A stretch of DNA of 36,934 bases from Bryobacteraceae bacterium (GCA_028275505.1 JAPWUP010000018.1:1-36934), one strand, 5' to 3'. Positions 23,212 to 32,666 are shown, counted from the stretch's first letter. Program-made: numbers and translations. Notes: generated by a model not told the origin, from the sequence alone.

Positions 23212-23910
23212 TTATCGCCTCATCTGGCAATCTACCAGCGGGCACCGATCGCAAGGATTGCCGTAGGCGCGCACGCGATCCTCGGGACCGATTCCGATCA
23301 GGCCGGAAATGGTCTTCAGCGGACGCATGATCATCGTCGGCAGGAGCTGGACTCCCACCAAGGAGGCGTCCAGCAGGCCGAACAACGTCCGCTGCTGCTC
23401 CAGAGGGATGCCGCAGTAGCCGGGACTGTAAGGCAGCGTGAGCGCTTCGCCGGCGCCCAGTTGCCCGCGCAGGTGCTCGATGGTGCGCGCAACCATGGCT
23501 TCGGCCAACGCGGCGCCGATCGCGTGGCAGACGAGACCGCCCAGAAAGTCTCGCCCCTGCATGGCGGCCTCGGCCGCCGCAACGATTTCCGTTCCCGCAG
23601 TGGCCAGGAAGATCGCAGCCCTTTGGGCTTCCCCAAGGAATTCGCCGATGCGGCCGGTGAACACGGCGCCGGGCAACTCCAGCCGGTGAGCAGAGCTGCG
23701 GAGCACGGGATAGATGCGGTACATCGCGCGCGGGCGTATCTCGGGCAAAAGTTTCTCGAGCGCCTGCTCCACGCGCTGTGCGACGCGTGGCTCGACAGGG
23801 GCGTCCTTCGGGTAACCCAGGTAACGGAAGACCTCCGCCGGATCGGGCTTCAGACCGGCGCCCTCCAGAACGACGGTCTCCGCTTCAGCCTTTCCACTCG
23901 CGCGCGGCAC
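23212..23910 (-). CDS. Stand-alone MetH-activation-domain-like protein (B12-dependent methionine synthase activation domain family)
   Basis: SPGYCGIPLEQQRTLFGLLDASLVGVQLLPTMIMRPLKTISGLIGIG matches the activation-domain GYP…LL…P…SGL pattern; C-terminal NPCDRCPLVDCQMRR Cys cluster. GTG start overlaps the upstream stop. Confidence 0.8.
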   Translation of the reverse strand: MPRASGKAEAETVVLEGAGLKPDPAEVFRYLGYPKDAPVEPRVAQRVEQALEKLLPEIRPRAMYRIYPVLRSSAHRLELPGAVFTGRIGEFLGEAQRAAIFLATAGTEIVAAAEAAMQGRDFLGGLVCHAIGAALAEAMVARTIEHLRGQLGAGEALTLPYSPGYCGIPLEQQRTLFGLLDASLVGVQLLPTMIMRPLKTISGLIGIGPEDRVRAYGNPCDRCPLVDCQMRR

Positions 23911-24880
23911 GAACCATTTCTCGCAGGTTTTCCAGCGGCGTCATGGGCGCCAGGCCGCAGCCCGGCGCCAGAATGTGCACGCCCGCGCTCAGCGATTCTT
24001 CGACGGCGCGGCGGACACGCTCCGGCGTGCCATTCAGTAGCACTTCCACCGTAGGGACGCCGCCCGCAATCGCGCAATCGCCCGCGCCGACCGCCTGCAC
24101 GAGATCCGTCCGGTCCTCAAGACTGATCACTTCCGCTCCCACGCGGTGCAGCAGAGAAAGGATGCGCGTGTTGGAGCCGCAAATGTGCAGCACCACCGGA
24201 GCCGGAATGGCCGAGACCAGCTGCTGCTGCGCGGGCAGGATCAACTGCTGGTAGAGGCGCGGCGAGGTCATGTCCAGGCTCGCGGCCATGTCTTCCACGG
24301 TGACCGCATCCGCGCCCGCGGCGACTTGCCTGCGGCCATACTCGATGCCCAACTCCACCGCAAAGTCCAAGTAGGGGCGCAGGGCATCCGGCCGGCGCAC
24401 CGATTCGGTGAGCACGGTCGTCAGCCCGGCAAGCTGGCAGACCAGCGTGAACGGGCCGACCAGCCCGCCGAGGACGGCCACCCGCTCGCCGAAATGCCGC
24501 CGTAGTTGCGCGATGGCCTCCACGACCGCCCGCGGCCTTCCCCGGTCCAGATCAGGCATGGCGGGTACGGGATCGCCCAGCCGGAGAGGGTGCGAGCGGA
24601 CCGAGGCGTTCGAGGTCCGATCGCCCAGATCCACCTCGGCGCCCAGCAGCTCGGCTTCGATGGTCTGGTCGAAGGGGACGCGCACGAAGTCAAAGCCGAC
24701 CACTTCGCAGGCGGCAGCGGCAAGCCTCGCCATGGCGTCGGGATCGCGGTGGGCCTCGGGCCACCAGGCGTTGACGGCTTCCATCTGCGCGACGGTGGCC
24801 GATTGCGTCAGCGCGCCTACCGGGACGGGGCGGACGGTCGTCCGCCGCATGGCTGAAAGCAGTCTTTCGCGCGGGGTCAT
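23885..24880 (-). CDS. Uroporphyrinogen decarboxylase-family protein, MtaA/MtbA-like methyltransferase
   Basis: MTPRERLLSAMRRTTVRPVPVG; VVLHICGSNTRI (HxC) and ILAPGCGLAPMTPLENL (second Cys) Zn-site-like motifs. Confidence 0.85.
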   Translation of the reverse strand: MTPRERLLSAMRRTTVRPVPVGALTQSATVAQMEAVNAWWPEAHRDPDAMARLAAAACEVVGFDFVRVPFDQTIEAELLGAEVDLGDRTSNASVRSHPLRLGDPVPAMPDLDRGRPRAVVEAIAQLRRHFGERVAVLGGLVGPFTLVCQLAGLTTVLTESVRRPDALRPYLDFAVELGIEYGRRQVAAGADAVTVEDMAASLDMTSPRLYQQLILPAQQQLVSAIPAPVVLHICGSNTRILSLLHRVGAEVISLEDRTDLVQAVGAGDCAIAGGVPTVEVLLNGTPERVRRAVEESLSAGVHILAPGCGLAPMTPLENLREMVRAAREWKG

Positions 24881-26034
24881 GGCAGGGGCTTGCGCCGGGC
24901 TTCCTCGATCATGGCCCGGACATTTTCCACCGGGGAGTAAGAATCCACTTCACAGCCGGGCATGACGACCGCGGTGGTGTGCGGCAAGGTGGCGTCGAGA
25001 AACTCGCGCACCATCCGGCGGACGTCCTCCGGCGTGCCGTGACAGGCGGTTTGCGTGGTCGGTGAGTTCATAGCGCAGCGCTTGCCGGCGAACAGCCGGG
25101 CCACGGATTCGCACCACTCCGGCCAGCTCAGCTTCTGGCTGTAATAAGGCATATCGTACTGCACGGCTTTGATGCCGTCCCACTGGACCAGCAACTGCAT
25201 GGCCTCGGGCAGGTTGTGGCCGCAAATGTGCCAGAACACGTAAGGGAACAATTTTACTGCCTTTTGTACGAAAATTTCGTCGGCGTAGCCGAACTCGCGC
25301 AGCTGGCGCGGTCCCCAGGTGCGGGCGCCGCCGAACAGGCAGACGAAATGCAAGCCGTGCTTGCGCGCGATCTCGGCGTAGAAGTCGAGCGCGGCCAGCC
25401 GCTCCTCCAGCGCCAGATCCAGGTAACGCTTGACCTTCTTGGGCTCGGTCACCGTCCAGCGTACGAACTGCTGCACTTCCACCAGCGTTTCCGCGTAGTT
25501 GGACGGCGTGGCGATACCCACGATCACGGGCACGATTCGGTCCATCTTTTCCTGGAATTCAAGCAGCTGGAGCATGTGCGGCACGTAGTGAGTGACGGCG
25601 CGCGATCCCTCCAGGTACCGCTCGTAAGCGCGGCTTTCGTACAGCTCGATGGCTTCGTCAATGGTTTTCGCCACCGGTTTGAAAAGCAGGTAATCCTTGT
25701 CGCCGCGGTGCACGAAATGCTCGGGGCGCTTTTCCGGCGGGATGAAGTTCTCGATCTGGTGGCTGATGTCCACGTACATCCAGATGGCGTCGGTGCGCAG
25801 GTCAGCCCACGTGCGGATGCAGGCGTCCGTGGTCTTGTCCACGTCATTGTAAATTTCCGCGTGCGAGTAACCCGCGTAAGTAATTTGCCAGTAATCCAGT
25901 TCGGGCGCCACGGGGACCAGATCGCTGCGACGCAATTCGAAGGCGGCCGCCATCCGCTCCCAGTGCGTCATTTCGCCGATCGGGCGCAGCTTGCCCTTGA
26001 GACGACGGACCCAGGCGTCAACGATTTCGCTCAT
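24877..26034 (-). CDS. Second, divergent uroporphyrinogen decarboxylase-family protein (putative corrinoid-dependent methyltransferase)
   Basis: MTHWERMAAAFELRRSDLVPVAPELDYW; FWHICGHN (HxC) and VVMPGCEVDSYSPVENV (Cys); ATGA overlaps at both ends. Confidence 0.82.
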   Translation of the reverse strand: MSEIVDAWVRRLKGKLRPIGEMTHWERMAAAFELRRSDLVPVAPELDYWQITYAGYSHAEIYNDVDKTTDACIRTWADLRTDAIWMYVDISHQIENFIPPEKRPEHFVHRGDKDYLLFKPVAKTIDEAIELYESRAYERYLEGSRAVTHYVPHMLQLLEFQEKMDRIVPVIVGIATPSNYAETLVEVQQFVRWTVTEPKKVKRYLDLALEERLAALDFYAEIARKHGLHFVCLFGGARTWGPRQLREFGYADEIFVQKAVKLFPYVFWHICGHNLPEAMQLLVQWDGIKAVQYDMPYYSQKLSWPEWCESVARLFAGKRCAMNSPTTQTACHGTPEDVRRMVREFLDATLPHTTAVVMPGCEVDSYSPVENVRAMIEEARRKPLP

Positions 26035-26702
26035 ACGGACCTCCGTGCGGCGCGCAACTCTTCCACCAGCCGGTCAAGTTTCCCCACGGCCTCCCAGGCG
26101 TCGTCGCTGGCGTCATCGGCGCCCATGCGCCGGGCCGCGGCTGGGTCCACGGCCGGCCCGCCGCAGATGATCTTGACGCGGTCCCGCAGGCCGGCCTGCT
26201 CGATGACGCGCACGGTTTCGCGGGTGTGCATGAAGGTGGAGGTCATATAGGTTCCCAGACCCACGATGTCCGGTTCGTACTCGCGAATGGCCTCGACGAA
26301 CCGTTCGTCGGGCACGTCCACGCCCAGATCTATGACGTCATAGCCGGCGGCCTGAAACACGGGGACCGCGACATCCTTGCCAACCGAGTGAATGTCGCCG
26401 TAAATGGTGCCGATGATCATCTTGCCGCGAACCGGGCCCCCGCCGGTCTGACGGATGAGGGGCCGCAGGATCTCCAGGCCCCGGTAGTATACATCGCAGG
26501 AGACCAGGACTTCGGGCATGAAGATTTCGCCCTGCTTGAACCTTTCGCCGACCTGGCGCATGCCCGCCGAGAGGCCTTCGGCCAGAATTTCCACCGGCGA
26601 CAGTCCGGCCGCCAGGCTGTCCTCGACCAGGGGGACGATCCCTTCGACGTCCATCTCCAGCACGGCCTGCGCGAGTTTTTGAAGCCTTTCCGCTTTTTCC
26701 AC
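26031..26702 (-). CDS. Corrinoid protein (MtbC/MtaC-like, B12-binding)
   Basis: GTIYGDIHSVGKDV contains DxHxxG corrinoid His motif; AGYDVIDLGVDVP…DIVGLGTYMTSTF…ICGGPAVDP Rossmann features; N-terminal helical cap. GTG start with GGAGG 6 nt upstream. Confidence 0.93.
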   Translation of the reverse strand: MEKAERLQKLAQAVLEMDVEGIVPLVEDSLAAGLSPVEILAEGLSAGMRQVGERFKQGEIFMPEVLVSCDVYYRGLEILRPLIRQTGGGPVRGKMIIGTIYGDIHSVGKDVAVPVFQAAGYDVIDLGVDVPDERFVEAIREYEPDIVGLGTYMTSTFMHTRETVRVIEQAGLRDRVKIICGGPAVDPAAARRMGADDASDDAWEAVGKLDRLVEELRAARRSV

Positions 26703-26866
26703 TTGGAACCTCCGTGATGTGGGTGCCTCAGGGGCCGCAGCGCCGGCGGGCGGCAGCGCGGCGCGGGCCTGAGTCCCACGATAAGAGTACTACAGCGAGG
26801 CGGTTCTGCTGGGCCGGCGGGGCGCGGCCGGGGGTGCGAAAATGGAAGTGTCCCTCCTGAAGGACC

Positions 26867-30360: not shown

Positions 30361-31806
30361 ATGAGCGCACCGATCTTTCGCAACTACATTAACGGCGAGT
30401 GGGTGGAAGGAGAGCTGTTCGAGAACCGGAATCCCGCCAACACGGACGATCTGGTCGGGTTGTTCGTGGCGGGCACGGAAGAGGACATGGCGCGCGCGGT
30501 GGCGGCGGCGGAGGCGGCTTTGCCTGGGTGGGCGAACACGCCGGCGCCGGCTCGGGGCGCATACCTCTTTAAGGTGGCGGAAATCCTGGAGAGTCGGCTG
30601 GAGCAGCTCGCTGTGGAGATGACGCGCGAGGAAGGCAAGACGCTGCCGGAGGCCCGCGGCGAGGTGCGACGGTCGGTCAACATTTTCCGCTACTACGCGG
30701 GCGAGGGGTCGCGCCTGCCCGGTCTGGTGACGCCTTCGGAACGGGATCGCGTCCATACGTTCGCGATCCGGCGGCCCATCGGCGTGGTCGGGCTGATTAC
30801 GCCGTGGAATTTTCCGAGCGCGATTCCGGCGTGGAAGCTGGCGCCGGCGCTAGTTTGCGGCAACACGGTGGTGATCAAGCCGGCTTCAGCCGCGCCGCTG
30901 AGCGCCTGGCGGATCGTGGAAGCCTGCCATGAAGCGGGCATCCCGCGCGGTGTGGTCAATTTCGTGGCCGGGCCGGGCGGACGGCTGGGGCGCGCGCTCA
31001 TCGAGGCGCCGGCGCTGAAGGCAATTTCCTTCACCGGCTCGTGCGAGATCGGACGCCAGTTGCACGAGGCCGCTTCCCGGCGCCGGCTGCGCATCCAGCT
31101 CGAGATGGGCGGCAAGAATCCGACGATCGTGCTGGCCGACTGCGATCTGGGGCTGGCGGTGGAGAACGTCGTCAACGGCGCCTTTGCCTCGACCGGACAG
31201 AAGTGCACGGCCACCAGCCGCGCCATCGTGGAAGAGAAGATTTACGACCGGTTCCTGGATGCGCTGATCGAGCGCACGCGGCGCTACAAGGTCGGCAACG
31301 GTCTGGAGCCCGGCGTGGACATGGGGCCGGCCATTGACGAAGCGCAACTGGAGACCGATCTCAGGTACATCCGCATCGGGACCGAGGAAGCAGGGCCACC
31401 GGTCTTCGGCGGACGGCGGCTGACCGGTCCCGGCTACGACAAGGGTTACTTCGTCGAGCCGACCATTTTTGCCGGCGTGACGCCCGAAATGCGCATCGCC
31501 CAGGAGGAGATTTTCGGCCCCGTGCTGGCGGTGATGAAGGCGCGGGACTTCGACGAGGCGCTGGAAATCGCCAACCGCGTGCCCTTCGGCCTTTCCGCCT
31601 CGCTTCAGACCACGAATCTTTCGCGCGTCTTCGAATATATCCACAGGATGGAGGCGGGCTTGCTGACGGTCAATCTGCCCAGCGCCGGCGTCGAATACCA
31701 GTTACCGTTCGGAGGCACGAAGGAATCCAGTTTCGGACCCAAGGAACAGGGCCCGACGGCGCTGGATTTCTACACCGATTTCAAGACCATTTATCTCAAA
31801 TACTAA
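30361..31806 (+). CDS. Aldehyde dehydrogenase family, probable alpha-ketoglutaric semialdehyde dehydrogenase type
   Basis: FRNYINGEWVEGELFENRNPANTDDLVG; TPWNFPSAIPAWKLAPAL; LEMGGKNP; GQKCTATSR catalytic Cys; EEIFGPVLAV. Confidence 0.85.
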   Translation: MSAPIFRNYINGEWVEGELFENRNPANTDDLVGLFVAGTEEDMARAVAAAEAALPGWANTPAPARGAYLFKVAEILESRLEQLAVEMTREEGKTLPEARGEVRRSVNIFRYYAGEGSRLPGLVTPSERDRVHTFAIRRPIGVVGLITPWNFPSAIPAWKLAPALVCGNTVVIKPASAAPLSAWRIVEACHEAGIPRGVVNFVAGPGGRLGRALIEAPALKAISFTGSCEIGRQLHEAASRRRLRIQLEMGGKNPTIVLADCDLGLAVENVVNGAFASTGQKCTATSRAIVEEKIYDRFLDALIERTRRYKVGNGLEPGVDMGPAIDEAQLETDLRYIRIGTEEAGPPVFGGRRLTGPGYDKGYFVEPTIFAGVTPEMRIAQEEIFGPVLAVMKARDFDEALEIANRVPFGLSASLQTTNLSRVFEYIHRMEAGLLTVNLPSAGVEYQLPFGGTKESSFGPKEQGPTALDFYTDFKTIYLKY

Positions 31807-31820
31807 GTTCGCGAGTTACT

Positions 31821-32666
31821 ATGCGATTGGGTCAGATACGCCTGGCGAACCAGACCGTGGCTGCGGTTTTCGAGGGCGAGCTGGTGAGGCCTGTGCCCAA
31901 TTACACGATGCTGGAGTTGATCCGGAAGGCGGAGAAAGAGCAGACGCCCTTGCCGGAGCTGGCGCAGGAGCTGGCCAGCCGCCATGCGGAGCCGGGGAAG
32001 CCGCTGATTCCGATCCACCCGCCCGAGGTGTGGGCTTGCGGCTGCACCTACGAGCCGAGCGCCAGTTTCCGCGACTCGCAGCACGGCGAGGAGGAAGGCA
32101 TTTACGCTTACGTGTTGCGCCGGCCGAGACCGGAGATTTTTTTCAAAGGCACGGCGCGGGTTTGCGTCGGGCCGGACCAGCCGATCGGCTTGCGCGCCGA
32201 CTCTCGCTTCACGGCCCCCGAGCCCGAGCTGGCCCTGGTGTTGGGAGGCCAGGGAGAGATCCTCGGATACACGCTGGCCAACGACGTCTCGGCGTGGGAC
32301 ATCGAGCGGGAGAATCCCCTTTATTTGCCGCAATCGAAATTCTATTGCGGCTGCTGCTCGCTAGGACCGGTGATTGTGACGGCGGATGAGATCGGTGATC
32401 CTTACGACATCGAGATTCGCTGCGTGATCCGGCGAGGCGAGGCCGTGATTTTCGAGGGTTCGGTTTCCACGCGGTCGCTGGTGCGCAAGTTCGACGAGCT
32501 GATCGGATATCTGCGGCGCTCGAACCGTGTTCCTTCCGGCTCGGTGTTGCTGACCGGGACGGGCATCATCGTCCCCGAAGAAGCGGCTCTTCAGCCGGGC
32601 GATGTGGTTTCGATCAGCGCCCCGGCGATCGGCGAACTCTCCAATCCCGCGGCGGTGGTGGAGTAA
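31821..32666 (+). CDS. Fumarylacetoacetate hydrolase family protein, possibly 2-keto-3-deoxy-sugar-acid dehydratase type
   Basis: PPEVWACGCTYEPSASFR; RPEIFFKGTARVCVGP; APEPELALVLGGQGEILGYTLANDVSAWDIERENPLYLPQSKFY; LLTGTGIIVPEE. Confidence 0.85.
   Translation: MRLGQIRLANQTVAAVFEGELVRPVPNYTMLELIRKAEKEQTPLPELAQELASRHAEPGKPLIPIHPPEVWACGCTYEPSASFRDSQHGEEEGIYAYVLRRPRPEIFFKGTARVCVGPDQPIGLRADSRFTAPEPELALVLGGQGEILGYTLANDVSAWDIERENPLYLPQSKFYCGCCSLGPVIVTADEIGDPYDIEIRCVIRRGEAVIFEGSVSTRSLVRKFDELIGYLRRSNRVPSGSVLLTGTGIIVPEEAALQPGDVVSISAPAIGELSNPAAVVE

Follow-up and report, generated by a model that had tools for sequence, protein, structure and literature searches.

A rare corrinoid methyl-transfer operon with two UroD-superfamily proteins and a MetH-type activase in a Bryobacteraceae genome, and its possible folate-independent function

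We analysed a 36,934-nucleotide stretch of DNA from a Bryobacteraceae bacterium (GCA_028275505.1, JAPWUP010000018.1:1-36934; hereafter the window, which is the entire contig C8 of an assembly, G000, of 4.66 Mb and 98.9% completeness) and found that four overlapping genes on its minus strand are a real, rare and co-conserved corrinoid methyl-transfer operon without a folate partner in the genome. In transcription order they encode a corrinoid protein (CP), two UroD-superfamily proteins (UroA and UroB) and a stand-alone MetH-type activase (ACT). We regard it as evenly poised whether the operon is a folate-independent corrinoid methyl-transfer module, in which UroA would load CP, UroB would unload it to a thiol and ACT would repair it. 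The features are:

26031..26702, minus strand: CP, corrinoid protein of 223 amino acids (aa); GTG start with GGAGG upstream; Pfam B12-binding_2 cap plus B12-binding.
24877..26034, minus strand: UroA, UroD-superfamily protein of 385 aa, proposed methyltransferase I (MT-I, the methyl-donor enzyme); URO-D; His-Cys-Cys triad H269, C271, C361.
23885..24880, minus strand: UroB, MtaA-family methyltransferase of 331 aa, proposed methyltransferase II (MT-II, from methyl-CP to a thiol); PRK06252, TIGR01463; His-Cys-Cys triad.
23212..23910, minus strand: ACT, stand-alone MetH-type reactivation protein of 232 aa; Met_synt_B12; C-terminal CxxCxxxxC.
26703..26866, minus strand: 164-bp intergenic stretch to the divergent gene, where the promoter is expected by sequence; the GTG is preceded by a GGAGG ribosome-binding site.

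The open reading frames (ORFs) and the sequence match exactly the four-gene order, strand, coordinates and three overlaps given by an earlier sequence-only reading of this DNA: CP and UroA share an ATGA at 26031-26034, UroA and UroB another at 24877-24880, and UroB and ACT overlap by 26 nt (23885-23910). A codon-model gene caller picked these four ORFs too, differing only in that it started UroB slightly later. The overlaps recur in relatives (-4, -4 and -26 nt in locus L004, -4 and -26 in L001, -4 and -4 in L002) and, because orthologues also keep the gene order in other genomes, the ORFs are not due to chance. The neighbourhood check that the sequence-only reading had proposed thus found orthologues in the same order, with CP, UroA and often ACT together, and co-conservation, whose loss would have spoken against the operon, held.

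UroA was found in 1 of 396 genomes of an Acidobacteriota sample and 4 of 150 in the family, in 2 of 392 of a Planctomycetota sample and in 6 of 397 of a class sample around a Phycisphaerae genome, and a scan of an 84,980-species collection, which catches close relatives only, gave 18 UroA loci. A wide spread is rejected by these low frequencies, as is plasmid carriage by the lack of any UroA match in 72,556 plasmids. The hosts are a few Acidobacteriota, Planctomycetota, Verrucomicrobiota, Armatimonadota and Sumerlaeota. In most loci CP stands before UroA; ACT follows in ten (L001, L003, L004, L006, L008, L009, L010, L011, L013 and L014) and, of all neighbours, accompanies CP-UroA most regularly in Planctomycetota. 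In L001 (the locus of the nearest named relative, a Bryobacteraceae metagenome-assembled genome, with UroA 94-95% identical), L003 and L004, UroB sits between UroA and ACT, and the L002 contig ends inside UroB. UroB beside CP or UroA was found only in Acidobacteriota and one planctomycete (L003), whose full operon, with UroA at 80% identity, suggests lateral transfer, misbinning being less likely. The distances of CP, UroA and ACT correlate across 11 loci (r 0.78-0.86, Mantel p 2e-4).

Profile searches, also proposed by the sequence-only reading, recovered the B12-binding, URO-D and Met_synt_B12 families expected for the four proteins, whose family assignments are firm. CP carries Pfam B12-binding (4e-24) and B12-binding_2 (4e-20), and its DxHxxG-type motif (GDIHSVG) is matched in 15 of 15 orthologues. 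CP belongs to the methyltransferase-cognate corrinoid type, but scored 176 bits against NCBIfam TIGR02370, short of the cut-off of 215, and stayed under the cut-offs of all named subfamilies. Corrinoid proteins usually have a Ser-x-Leu motif in the B12 domain; at its place the CP domain (window 26031-26702) reads VGLGTYM. The genome's second stand-alone corrinoid protein (L071:2716-4249, contig C343) adjoins an AP_endonuc_2 TIM-barrel protein, with no methyltransferase beside the pair, and a close relative of this TIM-barrel protein stands directly upstream of CP in L004 (L004:1760-3336).

Both proposed methyltransferases are UroD-fold and neither is HemE, as the sequence-only reading had claimed and as profiles, predicted fold and tree agree. 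UroB matches Pfam URO-D at 1e-66 and exceeds the curated cut-offs of PRK06252 (322 bits, cut-off 244) and TIGR01463 (271 bits, cut-off 235.4), while staying under the MtaA and MtbA equivalog cut-offs. It is 37.9% identical to Methanosarcina mazei MtaA and groups with MtaA with support of 92/88, which narrowly misses the value at which the tree tool calls a branch firm; judged by these scores and this placement, UroB is a relative within the MtaA family. UroA matches URO-D at 1e-14, is 24.3% identical to M. mazei MtaA and reaches 65 bits against TIGR01463 (the MtaA/CmuA family), far under the cut-off of 235.4. It forms its own clade on a long branch (support 100/100), keeps 62-95% identity across five phyla and matches no named family over cut-off; alignment and tree place it as a separate, very conserved UroD-superfamily clade. 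The predicted UroA fold (predicted local distance difference test, pLDDT, 86.5) matches MtaA 4ay8 best, HemE structures following closely, and its N-terminal part resembles CdmB, from the O-demethylase side of the family. An identity of either protein as HemE was rejected: UroB scored 56 bits against the hemE equivalog (cut-off 303), UroA had no match to that profile, and no grouping with HemE (contig C121) was seen in the tree. The H-x-C...C pattern (H269, C271 and C361 in UroA) is invariant in the alignment of 18 UroA orthologues and in 11 of 11 UroB-type proteins aligned, and the predicted zinc ligands in both proteins are this His-Cys-Cys sequence motif. The genome has 14 URO-D places, about a dozen of them UroD-family paralogues besides HemE, and only three B12-binding_2 proteins; most of these paralogues are therefore without an adjacent corrinoid partner.

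The activator was expected to be of the MetH-domain type rather than a RACo or RamA type, and this is borne out by a Met_synt_B12 match (1.8e-6, 28.1 bits, cut-off 25) and by the predicted fold, whose best structural match is 1j6r (template-modelling score 0.84 on the target). The PGY region of the S-adenosylmethionine (SAM) site is conserved in the ACT alignment. At the C-terminus, C220-x2-C223-x4-C228 is invariant in 19 of 19 stand-alone ACT proteins aligned, and the genome's own MetH has no CxxCxxxxC at its C-terminus. This tail could be a metal or iron-sulfur site, and because it is modelled at low confidence (pLDDT about 51-64) a metal cluster there is a guess only. By analogy with MetH, ACT would bind SAM and reductively methylate cob(II)alamin, and it would presumably act on CP. 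MetH-type reactivation places a SAM methyl group on cobalt once per rescue. Such rescue is rare, at about once per 2,000 turnovers (PMC7005905). Since ACT-type proteins also adjoin MtaB, CP and UroD (L088) and MttB and CP (L089), the type seems to serve the stand-alone corrinoid proteins of these phyla as a general activase.

The window had been read as lacking a pterin or tetrahydrofolate methyltransferase, and this extends to the genome: no pterin-type MT-II was found in either, the only pterin-binding proteins being FolP and MetH, so that a folate MT-II hidden in the genome outside the window is rejected. Among relatives, no third pterin protein over cut-off was found in the ten with ACT beside UroA, and one or more extra pterin matches occur in five genomes without adjacent ACT (L012, L015, L016, L017 and L018), a short extra pterin protein being confirmed by Pfam for L015 and L017. 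In L005 and L007, ACT is not adjacent but lies elsewhere in the genome, and no extra pterin protein is present. Phylogeny may explain this contrast, because it also follows lineages. In L068, the extra pterin match falls in a different corrinoid cluster: this Armatimonadota locus (L068:1320-7941) holds a pterin-binding protein, a corrinoid protein, UroD proteins and a protein reading like a formate-tetrahydrofolate ligase; the cluster reads like a folate-linked corrinoid system in a genome also holding UroA.

The four families, the putative zinc triads, the co-conservation and the lack of a pterin-type MT-II can be read from the sequences themselves; the direction of methyl flow, the donor and the acceptor we infer. 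In the proposed mechanism, UroA would transfer a methyl group from a donor, most likely a thioether or selenoether, onto Co(I) of CP, and UroB would pass it on from CH3-Co(III)-CP to a thiol bound by zinc; this thiol is most likely homocysteine, and the product would then be methionine. ACT would restore CP once it has lapsed into the Co(II) state and, like the MetH reactivation domain, would use SAM and an electron to do so. The module would then be a split methionine synthase analogue with a UroD enzyme replacing the methyl-folate module. Donor and acceptor, left blank by the sequence-only reading, can be provisionally narrowed, by the triads to sulfur or selenium compounds and by relatives' neighbouring genes to homocysteine. 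The His-Cys-Cys triad marks the sulfur and selenium methyltransferases of the UroD superfamily (PMC10418091), and a sulfur or selenium donor is favoured because UroA has this triad. For UroB, we infer homocysteine from its family (MtaA methylates a zinc-bound thiol) and its position. In a planctomycete (L014), a homocysteine S-methyltransferase (HMT; PF02574, 4.7e-66) lies directly upstream of CP-UroA-ACT, and PF02574-type HMT genes also occur in the corrinoid operons of L110 (CP-HMT-UroD), L133 (MttB-CP-HMT) and L134 (CP-RACo-HMT-UroD), which argues for homocysteine as the acceptor in this group of systems. Because most of the 22 short HMT neighbourhoods viewed were fetched by HMT position and not by corrinoid neighbours, we judge informally that this pairing is above chance. 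Homocysteine is thus moderately supported and would be the most likely acceptor for the module overall. The full proposal of a folate-independent methionine synthase, in which CP would be charged by the UroA clade from methylated sulfur or another donor, unloaded onto homocysteine via UroB or HMT, and reactivated by an ACT with a metal or iron-sulfur Cys tail, is tentative, and we hold it as possible rather than probable.

Several observations weigh against this proposal. A complete MetH, activation domain included, is encoded in the genome, and growth therefore does not require a second methionine synthase. The genome also has a free HMT, alone on contig C307 and a 65% relative of the L014 protein, and UroB may therefore use another thiol acceptor. 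The Planctomycetota clusters without UroB may use a different acceptor enzyme, and shared ancestry may explain part of the correlation of CP, UroA and ACT distances. Strict replacement of HMT by UroB was tried as a rule: where Phycisphaerae clusters lack UroB, a short HMT with 53-59% identity to the L014 protein is indeed present, but the genome analysed here has both UroB and the 65% HMT relative, which leaves the rule only suggestive.

Two UroD methyltransferases with one CP had been put forward as the best candidate for an undescribed pathway in the window, but this pairing has precedents in the mlp clusters (PMC10418091) and the dichloromethane mec cassette (PMC9768040), the former also without a folate methylase. 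The mlp clusters, for which methyl-selenide recycling or methionine salvage was proposed, are defined by two or more MtaA-like proteins with over 25% identity each to a known coenzyme M (CoM) methyltransferase, a CP in the same transcription unit, a Ram/RACE activase and no tetrahydrofolate methylase within 20 kb (PMC10418091). Here UroB lies above the 25% rule and UroA at its edge, CP is directly upstream of UroA with a 4-nt overlap, and no folate methylase was found in the genome besides FolP and MetH; a Ram/RACE activase is absent from the four-gene cluster, whose activase is Met_synt_B12. The two share several His-Cys-Cys UroD enzymes, one CP, an activase in the operon, no folate methylase and a patchy spread, but they differ in the activase type, in the more distant clade of UroA and in their hosts (Acidobacteriota and Planctomycetota here, mainly Firmicutes for mlp). 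The operon works like an mlp cluster but, lacking the Ram activase, falls outside its definition. The mec cassette likewise has more than one UroD enzyme (MecC, MecE, MecI) with one CP, but it uses the pterin MT-II MecF, of a kind absent from this genome, and has no MetH-type activase. UroB resembles the methylcobamide:CoM methyltransferases MtaA, MtbA and MtsA in fold and zinc triad, but has a bacterial host and an acceptor that is probably not CoM. Split methionine synthase and MtgBCDE also have a separate CP, which demethylation and methionine synthesis can share with a folate module, coupled via a homocysteine module (PMC12478193), but they take the methyl group through a folate (MtgD) or MttB-type (MtgB) donor module, whereas here that module is UroD-type, with UroB or (in L014) HMT as acceptor enzyme. 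Core-MetE is a UroD/MetE-fold enzyme that methylates homocysteine from methylcobalamin without folate and is proposed to take the methyl group from a CP (PMC7005905), though of a different family from the MtaA-like UroB. ACT shares its fold and the PGY region with the MetH reactivation domain (Escherichia coli MetH, Thermotoga maritima TM0269), but is stand-alone, lies beside a methyltransferase CP and has the invariant Cys tail. The new parts are the MetH-type activase with this tail and the UroA clade. No literature on this operon or on UroA was found among open-access papers.

The zinc triad shared by UroA and UroB would also suit the recycling proposed for mlp clusters, in which UroD enzymes would demethylate methylated selenium or sulfur compounds and pass the methyl group to sulfide or another thiol, not specifically homocysteine. 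These clusters are the closest described architecture, and ClMlp2 catalyses methyl transfer between cobalamin and selenide (PMC10418091). However, they occur in obligate anaerobes with a Ram activase, and no selenium or sulfur genes lie next to the operon (neighbourhood only; SelABCD were not searched for in the genome), and we consider this explanation rather unlikely. UroA could instead be an O-demethylase acting on a methoxy compound like MtvB, OdmB or MtoB, with the methyl group passing via CP to the thiol of UroB; an O-methyl donor is possible, and the CdmB-like N-terminal part of UroA fits it. In L008 and L013, CP adjoins major facilitator superfamily transporters whose closest family is that of the aromatic-acid symporters, although their scores fall far short of its cut-off. 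UroA has His-Cys-Cys throughout, whereas in O-demethylases the positions of the two Cys are occupied by carboxylates or provide no zinc ligand (PMC10418091); O-demethylase systems also use a pterin MT-II, absent here, so that we find this explanation improbable.

That same absence bears on UroA as a CmuA- or MecE-like MT-I demethylating chloro- or bromomethane, since Cmu, Cdm and Mec systems pass methyl to folate via a pterin MT-II. The family of CmuA and MecE, MtaA/CmuA (PMC9768040), is indeed matched by both UroA and UroB, but the UroA score stands at 65 against 235 bits, and this role appears very improbable. No more can be said for a reverse, biosynthetic flow, in which ACT would charge CP from SAM and UroA or UroB would methylate a metabolite: MetH-type reactivation does place a SAM methyl group on cobalt, as established for MetH, and ACT is the regular partner of CP-UroA in Planctomycetota, but MetH reactivation is a rare rescue and not the main cycle (PMC7005905), and no biosynthetic genes accompany the operon in its neighbourhoods. 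Finally, UroB might use CoM like its archaeal relatives, its 38% identity to M. mazei MtaA being above the about 30% among MtaA, MtbA and MtsA (PMC10418091); no methanogenesis or CoM-related genes lie near the operon (neighbourhood only; CoM biosynthesis genes were not searched for in the genome), and we give this the slimmest chance.

The flanking genes look unrelated to the operon: a SPOUT methyltransferase downstream and, upstream, a divergent 428-aa protein that is peptidase-like by sequence reading. No known RNA family was found in 26703..26866, with only chance-level matches upstream of CP, and SAM or cobalamin riboswitches as a clue were dropped, nothing reaching gathering score in the window or in the loci of 14 relatives. 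At window 30361-32666, an aldehyde dehydrogenase precedes a protein of the FAA-hydrolase family, and together they look like a pair for oxidative sugar-acid catabolism. DUF1638 precedes CP-UroA or UroA in Verrucomicrobiota (L016:7830-8597, L018:9067-9879), where ACT is missing, and in L074 and L099 a UroD gene follows proteins similar to it by appearance, not by profile. AP_endonuc_2 (L004) and Gfo/Idh-like neighbours gave a possible hint of O-methyl sugars, set aside because other loci also have genes of this kind nearby. These genomes contain further uncharacterised corrinoid operons, namely MtaB-ACT-CP-UroD (L088:5607-9763), MttB-ACT-CP (L089:1-2604), MttB-CP-HMT (L133:4266-7295), CP-RACo-HMT-UroD (L134:194-6239) and CP-HMT-UroD (L110:5177-7805).

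The presence of the ACT type beside MtaB, MttB and UroD systems suggests that it is an activase of general use in these phyla. If the proposed folate-independent methionine synthase is true, methanogen-type thiol methyltransferases would be working in Acidobacteriota without a folate step, and there would be a route besides MetH and split MetH that feeds corrinoid-bound methyl groups into methionine.

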